NCBI GenBank assembly: GCA_018303445.1
Contig: JAGVYE010000004.1
Span: 1 to 45,759, forward strand
Origin: Candidatus Woesearchaeota archaeon
GTDB lineage: Archaea > Nanobdellota > Nanobdellia > Woesearchaeales > GW2011-AR9
Reading direction: 5' to 3'
Length of the DNA stretch: 45,759 nt
This document shows, piece after piece, positions 3,591 to 17,513 of the stretch (the stretch's first letter is position 1; every line of letters starts with the position of its first letter). The position numbers were made by a program, and so were the translations under genes. The notes under the pieces were generated by a model that did not search any database, was not told the DNA's origin, and saw only the letters and a program-made list of their open reading frames with translations.

Positions 3591-5798
3591 GTGGTCTCGA
3601 GAGAAGAAAAGTTACGGAGAAGGTTATTAGAGAAGCAGGAGCTGGAGAGAAGAAGCGAGGCTGGAACAGCTAGTAATAGTGAGGCTGAACAATTAGGGAA
3701 GTTAGAAGCGAAGGAGGAGCGAAAAAAAGTTATTGTTGAAGAAAGGGACGTTAGAGGAAAGGAAGAAGAACGCGCTTTCTTAAAAAAATTAGGGGAAAGA
3801 GCTATTTCTGCTCTTGAAAAGTTAGATCAAAAAGAAAGTCAGGTAAAAGTGCCAGTGGAGATTCCTTCAAAAGAAAAAGAACAAGAAGAAGAGCACGAAG
3901 CGGGAGAAGAGGCTGAAGAAAGGGAGAGAAAGAAAAGACGTAGTGAATCTGATAACGATGAAGATGCTGAAGAAGAGGCTGATGAAGAAGAAAGACGAGA
4001 AAGAAGAAAGAAGATATCTCCGGAAGAAGACTTCTTTACAGCACTATTAAACAAAGATTCCGATAAAAAATCTCAACCAAAATGGCTCGCTCCTCTCATT
4101 ATCTTTCTCGGTGGTTTAATTTATTGGCTACGAGTGTCAACAGGGGGAGAAGTGCCTGGAACAATCGTTCCTGCCGCATTTATTCTCTCTCATTTTATAA
4201 TTTTCCCTTTAGCGGGATACGCTTTAGTTTATAAGTTAGGCAGAACGGAATCAAGGTATCCGATCCTTCTGCCGATGCTTTTTTTTATAGTTTGGTTTCA
4301 TCTTTTTGGCAGAAGCACAGAATTACCTTTTATTGTCATTTATCTCAGCATCTGTGCTCTTATTTTAGCCTTTCCAGCCTTGGTTTCAAAAGGGCAAGCG
4401 CTTAAACCAGAGTTATATGGACTTCTTCCAACGCTTTTTCTCTTTCTTGATAGCGGCCTTCTCCCTTATTTAACAGGAAATCTCCATCTTCCCATAACGC
4501 CGTTGACACAAGGTCTTCTTCTGTACATGCCTTGGTGGGTAGTGTATGGGGTGTTAATGCTGCCAGAACAGTTTAGCGAAAAGCATGAAGGGCTTAATTT
4601 TTTCTTTGGTTTGTTAAAAGTTCTGACGGTTCTTTACATTATCATTACGTTAGTGGTGCCTACACTTCCCAATATTGGTTACGAATCAATCGTTCCCAGT
4701 GCAGAAGAGTTAGAAGAAGCTCAGGCAAAAGTGCGTGAGCAATATGGGAAAAAAGAAAACCCTTTCATTTCCACTTTACGTTGCATCTGGAACCAGGAGT
4801 ATGGCACTTTACAGGCATGTGTCGATAAAAAGCAGCAACAATCAGAGTGGAAGTATGTCTGTGAAGAAATCGAAAAGCATAAACCAAGCGAAGATGAAGA
4901 TTCGCCTTTTCAAAAGTGTCTTCAAGAGCAAGAAAAGAAAGCAAAAAATAAAGTACTGCAAGTAGGGGGAACGATTGATCCTACAATACGAATTCCCACC
5001 ACTGCAAAGGTTCTCTTTGAGCAGCGAAAATTTGGAGAAGAGTATGATCCTCAGTTTGGCTATCCCTTTGGATTACAAGTTGAAAATCCACGAAAGCTGC
5101 AAATAAAAGCTGAAGCGTCTTGTCACTTCGATGGCAAGCGTGAAACTCCGGATATAGCAGGTGAAATCAAAGGGCAGAAGGCATTAGAAAGCGTGCAGAT
5201 TGTGGACTTCTCCGAGGAGCAATTTAGTACTCCTTTTATTTGCAATCCTTTAGAAGAATTAAATGGGGAATATGAACTGGTAGCTGAAGTTCGTTTGTTT
5301 AACTTAAAAACTATTTCAAGATTGCAACGCGCTTTTATCGGGGTAAAGCCTCCTGAAGATAAAGAGCGACTGCGAAAAGAAGAAATTTCTAAATCACTTC
5401 GAACTCCAGAGTCACTCGCTCCTGCAGATTTGTCTTACATTCAGTTTGATATTGGCCATTCACCTAAGGAGATTATAATTGAAGATAAGTCTAATCGAAA
5501 TATCCTCCTCAAAGCAAATGTACATAACGCCGGAGGAGGGAAGCTTCTTAATATCAAAAGTTATTTTATTGATGCGCAGAATATGGTTCCAGATAATTCA
5601 AATTGTCTGCAAGGTTCTCTTTTTAATACAGAAAAGTATACGACGGATATTCCTCTCCCTCCTTGTGTTTTAGAATACCCTTCAGACTTACAATTTATTA
5701 CGGATTGGGTGCCGCGGGAATTTCGCGCGGAATTGGTTTATGATTATTTAATCTCACAAAAAGCGGAAATTTCCCATAAAACAGAGGCATTAAAATAA
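3591..5798 (+). CDS. Multi-pass membrane protein with charged coiled N-terminus and C-terminal beta domain
   Basis: Long Glu/Arg/Lys-rich N-terminus, several TM segments, soluble C-terminal domain; GTG start. Confidence 0.6.
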   Translation: MVSREEKLRRRLLEKQELERRSEAGTASNSEAEQLGKLEAKEERKKVIVEERDVRGKEEERAFLKKLGERAISALEKLDQKESQVKVPVEIPSKEKEQEEEHEAGEEAEERERKKRRSESDNDEDAEEEADEEERRERRKKISPEEDFFTALLNKDSDKKSQPKWLAPLIIFLGGLIYWLRVSTGGEVPGTIVPAAFILSHFIIFPLAGYALVYKLGRTESRYPILLPMLFFIVWFHLFGRSTELPFIVIYLSICALILAFPALVSKGQALKPELYGLLPTLFLFLDSGLLPYLTGNLHLPITPLTQGLLLYMPWWVVYGVLMLPEQFSEKHEGLNFFFGLLKVLTVLYIIITLVVPTLPNIGYESIVPSAEELEEAQAKVREQYGKKENPFISTLRCIWNQEYGTLQACVDKKQQQSEWKYVCEEIEKHKPSEDEDSPFQKCLQEQEKKAKNKVLQVGGTIDPTIRIPTTAKVLFEQRKFGEEYDPQFGYPFGLQVENPRKLQIKAEASCHFDGKRETPDIAGEIKGQKALESVQIVDFSEEQFSTPFICNPLEELNGEYELVAEVRLFNLKTISRLQRAFIGVKPPEDKERLRKEEISKSLRTPESLAPADLSYIQFDIGHSPKEIIIEDKSNRNILLKANVHNAGGGKLLNIKSYFIDAQNMVPDNSNCLQGSLFNTEKYTTDIPLPPCVLEYPSDLQFITDWVPREFRAELVYDYLISQKAEISHKTEALK

Positions 5799-6679
5799 TG
5801 AGAAAGCTCACTTTCGTTGCGGCTTTATTAGTTATTTCTTTTCTTCTTACAAGTTGCGGGAGTTCTTCTGGTTCTGAAGGAGATATTATCCAACAAAATT
5901 TTAAACAAGGAGTTCAAGAAGTTCAGATTCGTCTTTTGGAAAATGCTCCTCCGGTAAAAATCTATCCAGGATCGAATTTTAAGATGGTTATCGATGTTGA
6001 TAATCAACTTGCCTATGACCTCCAGGATGTTACTTTAACGTTAACGGGGCTTAATGAACGATACGTGCAAATTGCGCCTAATCCACTTGAAGGCCATTAC
6101 CTTGACCAAATGTTAGGCCGTTCGCTTACAAATCCTTCTGGCGAGCGCAAGATTGTGGAATTTGATGGGAAAGCCGAAAGTCTCTTTCTTAACGCGGAAC
6201 AACATATGGAAACTTTTTTCATTAAACTGGCTTACCGATCAACCCTAGATTTTACGGACACGGTGTGTCTTAACACGAATGTTTATTCCATCTACGATGC
6301 TGGGTGTAAAGTAGAACCACAAAAAACATATTCTGGACAAGGGGCTCCTCTGGCGATAACTAAAATCGAGGAAATTATCTTTCCTGGTTCTGCAGCAGAC
6401 ATTGAATTTCGCATTAACTTGCAGAATAAAGGAAGAGGAAATGTTGGTGAAGTGCAACTCCTTTCTGCGAATTTGGGAAATGATCCTTTACAATGTGATT
6501 TCCGCGGCAGTGGATTAGAGACTAATAAAATTAAATTTGTTGAAAATAAGAAAGAACACACCCTCATTTGCCGGAAAGAAAGAATAACGGCGGGCAGATC
6601 GTATAAAACCCCCTTATCTCTTAGATTGGTGTATGATTATAAACTAGCGCAACAAAATAAACTTACGTTAGTGAGATAG
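5798..6679 (+). CDS. Predicted lipoprotein, paralogous at its C-terminus to the preceding protein
   Basis: Signal plus lipobox-like 'LLTSCGSS'; start overlaps upstream stop (taATG); C-terminal N-x-G-x-G ... VYDY motif shared with 3591..5798. Confidence 0.6.
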   Translation: MRKLTFVAALLVISFLLTSCGSSSGSEGDIIQQNFKQGVQEVQIRLLENAPPVKIYPGSNFKMVIDVDNQLAYDLQDVTLTLTGLNERYVQIAPNPLEGHYLDQMLGRSLTNPSGERKIVEFDGKAESLFLNAEQHMETFFIKLAYRSTLDFTDTVCLNTNVYSIYDAGCKVEPQKTYSGQGAPLAITKIEEIIFPGSAADIEFRINLQNKGRGNVGEVQLLSANLGNDPLQCDFRGSGLETNKIKFVENKKEHTLICRKERITAGRSYKTPLSLRLVYDYKLAQQNKLTLVR

Positions 6680-6851: not shown

Positions 6852-7556
6852 TTGATGAAAAAATTAATTTTATTAGGACTATTAATAACTGCAGCTTTAA
6901 TGTTGATCGGTTGTACTAGCCAGCAGCCGGAAGGATTGCCTGCTCCGGCGGGGTCAGATGCGGCTATAGCTGGGCAGGGATTTGCAACCGGAACTTATGA
7001 CCGTGGGTATCAGTTATACAGTCATATCTATTCTAACGGATTTCTAGACAGTTATTTAGTGGAAAATGGAATCTGGAATTATTTGGGTAACTCAGGTGTA
7101 GGAGCAAAAGTTTCAAGTGGCGCATTTACATTAACAGTATTGCCGCGAAGGGAAGGAAACCTGCGAGATCCAGGAAGCAGGGTAAGATTGAATTCAGCTT
7201 GTTCTGGATATACCATAGAGTTTCAAAGGGGTAACAGGATGGGTACGTTTTGGATAACTACTCCTGCCGGCGTTATGGATAACTTTAGAGTTCGGGTAAA
7301 TACGCCGCAGCCAGTCCATCAAATTTTAGGAACCAACGATGCTATTACTATTCATAATATCGGTCAAAGTGTGGCTCCAACTAGAGACGATGTGGTTTGG
7401 TTTACCTTGCATTGTGATATACCTAGAAGCCAACCTCCAGCAACTACCAACACAATAGAACAACCTAATCAAGTTGTACCTACTAGCCAACCTCCAGCAA
7501 CTACCAACACAATAGAACAACCTAATCAAGTTGTACCTACTAGCGGCGCTACTTAG
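6852..7556 (+). CDS. Predicted lipoprotein with tandem Pro/Thr/Gln-rich C-terminal repeat; possibly frameshifted into 7531..7725
   Basis: Lipobox 'LMLIGCTSQQ'; C-terminus SQPPATTNTIEQPNQVVPT x2; TATA-like promoter upstream. Confidence 0.6.
   Translation: MMKKLILLGLLITAALMLIGCTSQQPEGLPAPAGSDAAIAGQGFATGTYDRGYQLYSHIYSNGFLDSYLVENGIWNYLGNSGVGAKVSSGAFTLTVLPRREGNLRDPGSRVRLNSACSGYTIEFQRGNRMGTFWITTPAGVMDNFRVRVNTPQPVHQILGTNDAITIHNIGQSVAPTRDDVVWFTLHCDIPRSQPPATTNTIEQPNQVVPTSQPPATTNTIEQPNQVVPTSGAT
7428..7541 (+). repeat. Perfect 57-bp tandem duplication (2 copies, 19 aa per unit)
   Basis: agccaacctccagcaactaccaacacaatagaacaacctaatcaagttgtacctact at 7428-7484 and 7485-7541. Confidence 0.95.
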
Positions 7557-10875: not shown

Positions 10876-11789
10876 GAGATAGATTTTGATGATTGATGAT
10901 GAGGAGCGTCCCTTGAGGAAGAATTTTCCACGAGGCATCTTTCTGTAATGGTTCTGAACAAATGATAATTCTTTCTTTTTTTGCAGTGCCATGGAAAAGT
11001 AACGTGGATATTTTTTGTGGCTCTGTAGAAAATCTCGAAAAAGTCGCCTTGGCCGTAACCTTCGTGCCGCTTTCATATCTTATTTTGAGTGGCGGCGCCT
11101 ACCAACTGGTCTTACGAATAGCAGTTCTCAGGTTACTTATTGGCCTAGGCGGCGACTTTTTCTACAGAGCCATTTTTTGTAATAGATATAAATAATAGTT
11201 TGCAAAGGCGAAGAGATAATAAAGTTAGAGCCGTTCTCTATCTTTAATTTTTCAATCAGATGGGGGGATACGTTGAGGATATTTTATGATCGTCTGGCCT
11301 AGTAAATAATACATTAGTTTTTTTGAATCTGTCGTGTCAAGAGGATGGAAATATTGTTTATAGGGGATTTCTCAGGAAATAGTTCCATTATGCGCAAGGA
11401 CGATATCTTCTTTTTTTTCTTTGAACTGGAAGGGGTGAGTATTGTGATATTCTAGGTCACTTTTTGATTTCTTTCTGGCGTGGAGAAGCAGAGCTGAACT
11501 TTGAATAAGGAGAATATTATTGGTTTGGGAATCATCTAGAAAAGAAGGGGGTAATTTTTTGAGGATCCAAGACTTATCTTGCAGGTAGGCAATACCAAAC
11601 CATCTTCATGACGATAACTTCCAAGTCCTTTTTCTTGGTTTAAATAACTTTTAAGCAAGAAATCCCCTGCTTTAGCATTGGGGAGGAGGTCAATTCATGG
11701 CTTTGATTTTGGTCAGCGGTAAGACGTTTAAATTCTTGATAAAGGCAAGAGGAATTTACTTTCCCTACGGCGAAAAGCATACGGCACAT
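10862..11789 (-). pseudogene. Decayed class II glutamine amidotransferase-like gene, interrupted by a MITE
   Basis: Minus strand: MCRMLFAVG (Cys2) ... KGLGSYRHEDGLVLP ... HARKKSKSDLEYHNTHPFQF..DIVLAHNGTIS*EIP ... [MITE] ... ERIIICSEPLQKDASWKILPQGTLLIINHQNLSLTSL*; several frameshifts and a TGA at 11372-11374. Confidence 0.75.
11019..11171. mobile_element. 153-bp MITE-like element with 9-bp target site duplication
   Basis: Termini GGCTCTGTAGAAAA... (11019-) and ...TTTTCTACAGAGCC (-11171); direct flanking repeat ATTTTTTGT at 11010-11018 and 11172-11180; no transposase ORF. Confidence 0.8.
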
Positions 11790-13849: not shown

Positions 13850-14788
13850 GTGAAAAAAAGATATAAAGTATTCCTGATTTTTTTAGGATTACTTTTCTTG
13901 CTTCTGTTCTTTGCTACTTATGAATTATTAGTGTATCCTACAATTGAGATCATCGACGATAAATCTGTATTAGGAGCACATCGAGGAAATTCTGTAGATT
14001 ATATCGAAAACACCTTGCCGGCATTCAAAAGTGCTGCTAATGAAGAGATTTACTCTTTTATCGAGTTTGATGCTCAATATACAAAGGACAAAGTTCTCGT
14101 TATTCACCACGATTTAAGTTTAAAGCGATTACAACAGAAATTAGATAAAATTTCTGATTTAACATATAGTGAATTAATACAACTTAGTGATTATCATATT
14201 CCTATATACGAGGAAGTCATGGAAGTTGTTGCAGGAAAGAAACCACTAAATGTAGAAATAAAATCTCAAGGAAATTTTGAAGATGATAAGCAGTTAGTTG
14301 ATTTTATCATTTTAGATTTAACAAAAAGAGGACTCATTAATTCCACTCTTATCAGTTCAATATCGGCTGAATTAATACAATATGTTAATGATAAATATAA
14401 TCAAAGATCGAATTATCCGTGGTATCATCTTTTCTGGTCAAAAAAACGAATGATTGACACCGGAATAATCTATTATGTAACAGAACAAAGTTTTACCAAA
14501 CGAATTCCTCTCATTAATGAGATTACCGAATTAGCAAGAGATTCGGGATTTTTTACTACCATGATAAGCGAAATGTACGTTATCGGGGCAAACCATTTAA
14601 TGATCCATGGAATGAACATAAATCAATATAAGCAATTACAGACGGATCTTCCATTTAATTCTAGAGTGGTCTTATGGACTTTTGATGATAAAATGTATCT
14701 AATTTTGCCAAATAAACACATTTGGGACTGGGTAAAAGAGACAAATGGTTTTGAGCTTCCCGACGTTGTACCCTGGTGGGAAGATTAG
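13850..14788 (+). CDS. Membrane-anchored glycerophosphodiester phosphodiesterase family protein
   Basis: N-terminal TM; LGAHRGNSVDYIENTLPAF..IEFDAQYTKDKVLVIHHD; LNVEIKS; start codon is GTG. Confidence 0.88.
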   Translation: MKKRYKVFLIFLGLLFLLLFFATYELLVYPTIEIIDDKSVLGAHRGNSVDYIENTLPAFKSAANEEIYSFIEFDAQYTKDKVLVIHHDLSLKRLQQKLDKISDLTYSELIQLSDYHIPIYEEVMEVVAGKKPLNVEIKSQGNFEDDKQLVDFIILDLTKRGLINSTLISSISAELIQYVNDKYNQRSNYPWYHLFWSKKRMIDTGIIYYVTEQSFTKRIPLINEITELARDSGFFTTMISEMYVIGANHLMIHGMNINQYKQLQTDLPFNSRVVLWTFDDKMYLILPNKHIWDWVKETNGFELPDVVPWWED

Positions 14789-14806
14789 TTTTAATGATTC
14801 AAAATT

Positions 14807-14830
14807 AAGATTTTGTGATGATCTTTAATT
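14807..14830 (+). repeat. 24-bp direct repeat copy 1 (island boundary)
   Basis: aagattttgtgatgatctttaatt, identical to 16430-16453. Confidence 0.95.
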
Positions 14831-14962
14831 AAATTTTTTAAGAAAGAATTGGGATTAAAAGTTAGGATTGTTTCGGGAATGAAAAATCGAGATAAGATAA
14901 TTGATATAGAATAATTAATTACAGTTTTCAAGTTTTGTGTTAAAAAACATAGAAACGTTTAT

Positions 14963-14988
14963 ATATCAATTGATATAACAGGCTGTTA
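14963..14988 (+). promoter_or_regulatory. Promoter/operator of the TA-like operon: two adjacent palindromes
   Basis: ATATCAATTGATAT (14963-14976) overlapping a TATA-like tttatata; TAACAG-G-CTGTTA (14976-14988) next to the ATG at 14988. Confidence 0.55.
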
Positions 14989-15266
14989 TGCAAACACAAA
15001 CCGTAGAAAATCCCTTTGTACGTTCACCTACTTTGGATACGGTATTAATGGTAGAAAAAACTATAGAAGAAAATAGTGGAGAATACAACAGAACTGAATT
15101 GTGGAAAAAGCTTCCTCGGCAGGTAATGTGGCAAACTTTCTTAGTTATTTTAGATTATTTAGAAAGTATTAACAAGATTGCTTTTGATAGAGACAGTAAA
15201 ATCGCTTATATTTGGAATCCAAAACTTGCTCAACTGCTTAGAAAGAGAAAAGAGATTGTTGTTTGA
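14988..15266 (+). CDS. Putative antitoxin, wHTH-like
   Basis: Small ORF, helical wHTH-like pattern (ELWKKLPRQVMWQTFLVILDYLESINKIAFDRDSKIAYIW), coupled to RelE-like ORF. Confidence 0.6.
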   Translation: MQTQTVENPFVRSPTLDTVLMVEKTIEENSGEYNRTELWKKLPRQVMWQTFLVILDYLESINKIAFDRDSKIAYIWNPKLAQLLRKRKEIVV

Positions 15267-15589
15267 TCAAACCATCCAAGGTTGTATTTATTTCTGACGA
15301 TCTAGAAAAAAACTTTAATTCTCTGAAAGAGGATGATCCTATTAAAAAAGCGATGGTTAGAGCTATTCAAGATTTGAAAGAAAATGCTTTTTCCGGTATT
15401 CAGATTCCAAAAAGGCTCTTTCCTAAAGAGTATGTTCAAAAGTATTCCATTAACAACTTATGGAAATATGATTTGCCACGCGGTTGGAGACTTTTGTATA
15501 CTGTTGCCCCAAATAATGAAGTAGAATTAATATCAGCTATTTTGGAATGGTTTGATCATAAAAATTACGAAAGAAGATTCAGGTATTAA
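15263..15589 (+). CDS. RelE/ParE-type toxin-like protein
   Basis: AIQDLKENAFSGIQIPKRLFPKEY...NLWKYDLPRGWRLLYTV...ILEWFDHKNYERRF; TTG start overlaps upstream TGA (TTGA). Confidence 0.7.
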   Translation: MIKPSKVVFISDDLEKNFNSLKEDDPIKKAMVRAIQDLKENAFSGIQIPKRLFPKEYVQKYSINNLWKYDLPRGWRLLYTVAPNNEVELISAILEWFDHKNYERRFRY

Positions 15590-15821
15590 TTAAAATTGGA
15601 AAGTTATTTTTCTTGTTTAAGACTTCTTCAATTCTATCAACGCATTTAGTCACATCTTTATTTATATCACTTTCCCAGAATCTCATTAATATCCAACTAC
15701 CATTGTCATATTTATTAATGTATGAATTTTTTGGTTTATCTCTAGAAACAGTTCTTTTTTGTTGTGGTTTTAAATTATTGGGATCAAAAATTACAGAGAA
15801 AAATTTATTCAATTTTATCAT
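15579..15821 (-). pseudogene. C-terminal remnant of a Vsr/DUF559-like endonuclease
   Basis: VSRDKPKNSYINKYDNGSWILMRFWESDINKDVTKCVDRIEEVL matches the C-terminal pattern; N-terminal catalytic part absent. Confidence 0.5.
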
Positions 15822-16190
15822 GACCTTAAGAAAAATGGTTTTTGGTGTCTTAATGCTGAAAGTGATGATGAATTAGGCGATTATCTGGAAGAAGGAATTG
15901 CTTTACGATTTGCTATAAAAAATCAAACTATACCTAACTTTGAAGTCAAGGTTGCTAAAAAAAAATTAGATTCTGAAGTTTTCGATGATTTTATCACGGT
16001 GAGGACAGTTGCCGGCACATTAAACATTTCTTCTTTAGAGCGACAAATTGCTTTTAAGAGATATTTCTTAAAATCAGATAAAGATCTAGAAGATGCTCGA
16101 CATATTGAAAATGTATTTAGGGAGCACTTAAAAAAAGAAAAAATTAAAAAGTATAAAGCCCTCATAGAACAAGAACATGGAATCTCTTAA
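15774..16190 (+). pseudogene. 5'-truncated nucleotidyltransferase (AbiEii/MNT-like) C-terminal fragment
   Basis: Open frame IIGIKNYREKFIQFYHDLKKNGFWCLNAESDDELGDYLEEGIALRFAIK...TLNISSLERQIAFKRYFLKSDKDLEDARHIENVF; no usable start upstream of the fragment. Confidence 0.45.
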
Positions 16191-16398
16191 ATCTTCGTCA
16201 GATAATAAGCAAGCCAGATTACTTTTTGTCGATTTCTGGGCTAATTTTATTAGAACACATCCTGATGAAGAATGGGGCAGGGAACATACTAATTTTATCA
16301 ATTCTTTAATGCATAGCGCTAAACATTATCCCCTTACTGCTAAACAGTATTTGGAAATTAAAGAAGAAGTCAAGAGAGATACTGCTAAACCGAAATAG
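16177..16398 (+). CDS. Small hypothetical protein overlapping the nucleotidyltransferase fragment
   Basis: ATG inside the preceding ORF end; 73 aa, charged. Confidence 0.5.
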   Translation: MESLKSSSDNKQARLLFVDFWANFIRTHPDEEWGREHTNFINSLMHSAKHYPLTAKQYLEIKEEVKRDTAKPK

Positions 16399-16424
16399 TT
16401 TAAGAAGATTTTTGCATCCCGATT

Positions 16425-17513
16425 TCATAAAGATTTTGTGATGATCTTTAATTCCGTCTCAAAGAAGATTTTGCGGCAAGTACAGTAATTCCCGAGATAA
16501 CAAAGTGCTAGTCTTGATGCCTTAAATCTGATCGGAAAAGGGATGTTTGGGGTCATGGGGCCAAGTCCGAGCGTGATATGTGGATAGAAATTTCTAAAAC
16601 TAAATTTTTCTCTGTAATTATTGATCCAAAATAATGTTCTCTCTTCTGGAGTTGGGGGTGTAAAGAGCATCTCCAGTGTGGCTTCGTTTGAAGTAAAAAA
16701 CTCAAGTTTCTTCATAATTTTTTCGTGGAGTTGTTGTAGTTCTTCCGTTTTTTTGATAGCGAAATTGGAATTATCTTCTTTATTTCTTATTTCATAAATT
16801 TCTAGGTTCAGAATGGCACCTGGTCGTGAAATAGCTCCGATGATTTTTCTAACTTTAGGGATATCTTTTTCATCTAAAGTTCCCATGCATAAAGATATAT
16901 GTGGTAAACATTTTTCTTTGTCTAACTCGATCTTTCTAAAGCCAGTTATAGTTTTATTCAGTTTAATACATAAATCCATAATCTCTTTGGGAGGAAGAAG
17001 TACAACATCAATAGCAATTTTTGACATCTTGTAGATACCTCTTAAAGGTGTTGATAAATCCGGAACTAAAATGGTTTGGATTCTCTTTTTTATTTCGTCA
17101 GGAAAAAACCATTTTCCTCCGCTTACTTCTTCATTAAAAACTAGTTTTCCATCATGCTTAGCAATAAATAAAGTGTCGTAACTTCGCAACACTCTTTCTT
17201 CCCATGGTTCTTCATCGTAGTAGCTTATTTCTTGGTTGAATTCAATATTTTTAATGCCAATTTATTCTTCTAATTCTCTTTTTGCCGCCTTTGTATAATC
17301 TTCACCAGGGTCAACATGACCGGTGGCGGAAGAGTCCCAGCGTCCAGGATAAATACGAACTTTTTGGCTTCGTTTTTGGAGAAAAAGTTGCCCTTTTTTG
17401 TTAAAAACAAAAACGCGAATAATTCTTCGTATCATTCCTTGTTCTAAAGCAATCTTAAACTCTTCTTCTCTCACAAAGTTCCCTTTCTTGCCGACAATAA
17501 CGACGCGGCTCAT
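16425..17513 (-). pseudogene. Nudix hydrolase fused to a 2H phosphoesterase (2'-5' RNA ligase-like) domain, split by an in-frame TAA at 17262-17264
   Basis: ORF 17262..17513 ends GHVDPGEDYTKAAKRELEE*, then IGIKNIEFNQEISYYDEEPWEERVLRSYDTLFIAKHDGKLVF in the same frame; HISLCMG and HITLGLG 2H motifs downstream. Confidence 0.75.
16430..16453 (+). repeat. 24-bp direct repeat copy 2 (island boundary, in the 3' end of the Nudix-2H gene)
   Basis: aagattttgtgatgatctttaatt; on the minus strand encodes LKIITKS at the C-terminus of 16425..17192. Confidence 0.95.

Follow-up and report, generated by a model that had tools for sequence, protein, structure and literature searches.

In eukaryotes, short copies of nearby DNA at joints are a signature of template switching. 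A narrow literature search found no description of templated joint copies in archaea. Microhomology-mediated end joining operates in archaea that lack Ku (PMC7776575), the archaeal primase PriSL takes part in repair by annealing microhomologies and extending strands (PMC12019639), and the published outcomes of archaeal microhomology joining are deletions or mostly 1-2 bp indels (PMC7776575, PMC12019639).

The locus described here lies in a genome of Candidatus Woesearchaeota (1.22 Mb, 95% completeness, 54-contig draft assembly) in which Ku was not found. The window, meaning the whole stretch of DNA analysed, is a contig of 45,759 nt that carries the archaeal genes eS1, fibrillarin and NOP5 and no tRNA; together with genome size and completeness, these genes suggest an archaeon of DPANN type. 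A tandem duplication of a 57-bp unit (96%) is present at 7420-7533. Between two convergent genes, coding for a glycerophosphodiester phosphodiesterase (GDPD) and a 2H phosphoesterase-like protein, an exact direct repeat of 24 bp encloses several genes and gene pieces (Table 1). We propose, with a probability of roughly 0.6, that foreign linear DNA was inserted here by microhomology-guided illegitimate recombination with local copying, and that the repeat most likely arose by duplication during this insertion rather than as a mobile element's attachment site.

Table 1. Positions of the repeats, gene fragments and flanking genes in the window.
Feature	Position	Strand	Remarks
GDPD, left neighbour of the insertion	13850..14788	+	PF03009, E 2.5e-24
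Left copy of the 24-bp repeat	14807..14830	+	ends TTAATT, common to the DUF167 fragment
DUF167 (YggU) 3' fragment, 5' half missing	14825..14918	+	88% DNA identity to G030:C53 (L019 1186-1279)
Toxin-antitoxin (TA) unit, mobile-like	14932..15589	+	86.8% DNA identity to L045, from another genus, across precisely 14932-15589
Vsr/DUF559-like nuclease, C-terminal fragment, N-terminal part missing	15579..15776	-	46-47% identity to the C-termini of longer frames in G070 and G014
Inverted copy (28/30) of the 2H stretch 16601-16630	15778..15807	-	at the nuclease/NTase breakpoint; last 15 nt (15793-15807) look NTase-native
Nucleotidyltransferase (NTase) 3' fragment	15793..16190	+	81% DNA identity to the intact L019 NTase; protein alignment
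Small ORF (SM), intact	16177..16398	+	82% aa identity to L019 1883-2098; follows NTase in G030 and G068
2H phosphoesterase-like gene, source of both short copies	16425..17261	-	relatives 24-53% identity; PF13563, E 0.018
Right copy of the 24-bp repeat	16430..16453	+	codons of the 2H C-terminus ...ELKIITKS; begins AAGAT
Source stretch in the 2H gene	16601..16630	-	encodes FWINNYREKF; matched by 15778-15807

The 24-mer AAGATTTTGTGATGATCTTTAATT is exact in both copies, and the repeat reaches 27 nt with one mismatch (96%; 14804-14830 and 16427-16453). None of 100 dinucleotide shuffles gave a match at three or fewer mismatches, which upholds the claim of the preliminary description that a repeat at these two places is beyond chance. 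At the same tolerance the two copies are the total for the whole 1.22 Mb genome, and the GTDB genome collection, from which records of this genome or its very near relatives are possibly absent, yielded no exact match; the 24-mer is thus not a common genomic repeat, the case named at the outset as speaking against an inserted element. The left copy is intergenic, 18 bp past the GDPD stop. The right copy is coding and supplies the C-terminal codons (...ELKIITKSL*) of the minus-strand 2H-like gene, in agreement with the earlier assignment to a gene 3' end, and in both copies a stop codon comes directly after ...KS (KS* on the left, KSL* on the right). An insertion of transposase type with a target duplication of 24-27 bp would also leave a direct repeat flanking the insert exactly; a target duplication of that length is, however, unusually long, no transposase was recognised in the insert and no inverted repeat at its ends, and no second insertion was found at a like site, making this a very unlikely origin.

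The 2H part of the right-hand gene starts near the Met at residue 78. An in-frame TAA (17259-17261, minus strand) inside a Nudix box (RELEE*IGI) cuts the Nudix ORF (17262-17513) off from the Nudix-2H frame, and represents either a disrupted gene or a sequencing error. The 2H gene is present in five other genomes of the family and a distant relative of the GDPD in most, with GDPD adjoining 2H at none of the relative loci examined; neither an empty site nor an intermediate turned up among them, which counts against our proposal.

Most of the DNA between the repeats corresponds to a chromosomal cluster of relatives. The cluster Gins51-DUF167-NTase-SM-dCMP deaminase is intact in G030 and its order is kept, wholly or partially, in G068, G010, G035 and G001. 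The repeat-bounded interval coincides with the block homologous to G030 and is cut inside DUF167 on the left. This DUF167 3' fragment (about 14825-14918), which the preliminary description overlooked, has as its G030 counterpart a part of an intact 78-aa DUF167 gene. The NTase fragment is missing approximately 190 bp of 5' coding DNA (the full protein has approximately 194 aa), and the stretch 15798-16379, made up of the NTase 3' part and SM, has an 81% DNA identity to G030. The genome also has its own Gins51-DUF167 locus, on contig C41 and without an NTase, and the alignable DNA of this native locus is 65-76% identical to G030 compared to 81-88% for the inserted block. Because the native locus sits elsewhere and at lower identity, the interval is best read, from these comparisons, as an additional piece of the relatives' cluster that was imported and is broken. 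With 81-88% similarity, G030 does not single out the donor, a point against this reading.

The direction of the replacement could in principle be the opposite: DUF167-NTase-SM would then be ancestral beside the 2H gene, GDPD DNA would have replaced the part upstream, and the 24-mer would be templated filler from the 2H tail at this one junction. DUF167 is indeed cut exactly at the copy, a like copy stands at both junctions (the 24-mer and the copy at the nuclease/NTase breakpoint described below), and the GDPD gene is GC-poor (0.32) like the insert (0.30), with 0.386 for the window. This native origin is nevertheless unlikely, as the genome has its own DUF167 beside Gins51, the block is nearer to G030 than the native genes are, and 2H and NTase are not neighbours at the relatives' loci seen.

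The TA unit and the opposite-strand nuclease fragment occupy the place of the NTase 5' coding end. The unit consists of a TATA-like box (about 14954-14965), a small antitoxin-like gene (14988-15266) and a ParE/RelE-like toxin (15263-15589). Relatives were detected in six other genera of the family (G072, G035, G014, G017, G019, G034) with 74-87% DNA identity, the homology stops at the edges of the two-gene unit, and the toxin protein is 81-92% conserved across genera of one family, at unrelated places. Judged by this distribution the unit behaves as a mobile module. No family model scored above cut-off for the unit and the TA families in the PDB gave no convincing match; it is a candidate new archaeal TA family. 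Movement of the unit with target duplications of its own was considered and rejected: in the window, and in all but one of the six other genera, flanking repeats did not exceed chance. Repeats around the unit were found among those six in G072 only. There, the closest relative of the TA pair (L111, G072:C99) lies between two similar sites of about 67 bp (5209-5287 and 5994-6073, 798 bp apart), each with two hairpins whose TTTAT loop is conserved and whose stems differ by compensated changes, together with 15-bp perfect inverted repeats (TTAATTTGGAGTCCA). The sites fold into a pair of hairpins that are either adjacent or share a short stem, with no single long attC-like hairpin, and the setting in G072 may represent a mobile cassette that is non-autonomous, or else a divergent cassette of integron type.

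The genes named in the preliminary description were all recovered in this interval: the TA-like pair is intact and has relatives in six other genera of the family, the Vsr/DUF559 remnant is a C-terminal nuclease fragment, the nucleotidyltransferase is a 3' fragment of a protein of about 194 aa, and the small ORF is intact. Their interpretation as a reduced or satellite-type defence island was not supported, since the cargo is mostly chromosomal and PADLOC gave nothing beyond a marginal RelE-type match for the toxin, with the nuclease and NTase present as fragments.

A further copy of 2H sequence, absent from the preliminary description, was identified at the breakpoint between nuclease and NTase, where 15778-15807 repeats 16601-16630 in inverted orientation. 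The direct and the inverted copy both come from the last 210 bp or so of the 2H gene and stand at two breakpoints. Scored with +1 for a match and -2 for a mismatch, each copy reaches 24, compared to a maximum of 16 in shuffled inserts (n = 150), which places short copies of nearby sequence at the breakpoints beyond chance and rejects a chance likeness of coding sequences as the source of the two copies. When the insert was compared with approximately 230 kb of the genome, its best two matches were both in the adjacent 2H gene. In approximately 221 kb of genome sampled, no repeats in the window other than these two reached this strength at a spacing within 3 kb; of the five further hits in the sample, some reflect paralogy of PEP-utilizing domains, and a 100-bp repeat and a hairpin are also among them.

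The inverted copy is probably composite. The native NTase of G068 has ACAGAGAACAATTTA, which agrees in 14 of 15 positions with the 15-nt match ACAGAGAAAAATTTA, and 15793-15807 is, on this alignment, probably native NTase sequence. The truly copied part would then be approximately 15 nt (13 matching), joined via a 15-nt microhomology. With its two mismatches the inverted copy is perhaps older than the direct repeat, and two events are therefore possible.

Elsewhere, an exact 100-bp direct repeat (11333-11432 and 12256-12355 of L093, G000:C4) surrounds a pilin-like ORF, beside which lies an IS-like transposase remnant (judged by eye). At a gene end in L099 (G000:C10, 10995-11129), the arms of a perfect inverted repeat (61 bp) are separated by a 13-nt loop; this structure could be an assembly hairpin.

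The preliminary description had read the whole as a mini-island flanked by attL and attR. That repeats bound an insertion, that one copy belongs to a gene 3' end, and that a TA pair and fragments lie between them stands; the attachment-site element is not supported. Such an element would have the 24-mer as its att core and attB in the 2H 3' end, with its integrase lost or acting in trans, and would be consistent with direct repeats that are exact and have their anchor in the 3' end of a gene, with the stop after ...KS kept on both sides, and with three tyrosine-recombinase matches elsewhere in the genome (C54, C45 and C38). None of these three has the 24-mer nearby, however, and with no third 24-mer in the genome at three or fewer mismatches there is no site for them. 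The interval itself holds no integrase, as previously stated. The cargo consists for the most part of DUF167-NTase-SM, a chromosomal cluster in truncated form, with only the TA unit mobile-like, and an integrative element would leave unexplained both the inverted 2H copy and the cut of DUF167 exactly at the repeat. We regard this origin as improbable. An assembly artefact or chimera in the metagenome-assembled contig is more improbable still: the assembly is a draft and a 24-bp repeat can mislead assembly at small k, but the 24-mer must be present in the reads at either flank of the block, the inverted copy is internal to it, and the contig is 45.8 kb long with few other repeats.

Microhomology-guided insertion would account for the joints as follows. 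A linear chromosomal segment from a related archaeon (DUF167 3' part-NTase-SM), bearing the TA pair and nuclease fragment where the NTase 5' end had been, would have entered between the convergent GDPD and 2H genes. Its left end would have joined the target at TTAATT, which at the end of the repeat runs unbroken into DUF167 sequence, exactly as in G030 (TTAATTAAATTTTTTAAG). Its right end would probably have joined at AAGAT, with which the repeat starts; the window can be aligned, weakly (p 0.006), with the G030 downstream DNA (ATAAAGATATT). TTAATT and AAGAT mark either end of a single 24-bp segment of the 2H tail, and their use in crossed order would have duplicated that segment on both sides of the insert. 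A 24-mer that is target DNA spanning two microhomologies in crossed order would explain its length and exact ends, the right side being the weak point of this reading. Where nuclease and NTase meet, the 15-nt match probably allowed a strand to anneal to the 2H gene, and this strand would have copied about 15 more nt before switching, leaving the inverted copy. Going by sequence, we grade the TTAATT microhomology as clear, the 15-nt one as likely and AAGAT as weak.

The templated copies of 24-34 nt depart from the published outcomes of archaeal joining, and this counts against our proposal. A general route, in which Ku-less small-genome archaea assemble mosaics of foreign fragments at breaks and fill the joints, in a Pol theta-like manner, with 20-35 nt copied from nearby DNA, is a speculative and rather doubtful extension; if such templated joining were true, it would give these archaea a way to gain TA modules. 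If scars of this kind recur, the end-joining route of these archaea becomes testable by genome survey. The locus also indicates that origins other than an attachment site are possible for an exact direct repeat that ends in the 3' end of a gene, and its readable scar, with direct and inverted copies of one neighbouring gene and microhomologies, points to entry of foreign DNA into a small archaeal genome without an integrase.

Compared with the described systems, the locus as we read it would resemble archaeal microhomology end joining (PMC7776575, PMC12019639) in being Ku-independent with few shared bases at the joints, and differs from it in having 24-34 nt copies and 1.6 kb of foreign DNA where deletions or mostly 1-2 bp indels are known. 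Homology-facilitated illegitimate recombination (e.g., PMC3240628) likewise joins linear foreign DNA with little homology at one end, although its homologous anchor at the other end was not found here. Islands flanked by attL and attR share the direct repeat, the copy in a gene 3' end and the TA cargo, whereas this locus has no integrase, no attP elsewhere and truncated chromosomal cargo. Eukaryotic Pol theta-mediated end joining leaves similar marks at breakpoints, in that short pieces of nearby sequence are copied there in both direct and inverted orientation; here the host is archaeal and the process is known only as scars. The proposed insertion is ordinary in kind, foreign DNA joined via microhomology, with a scar that is unusually readable.
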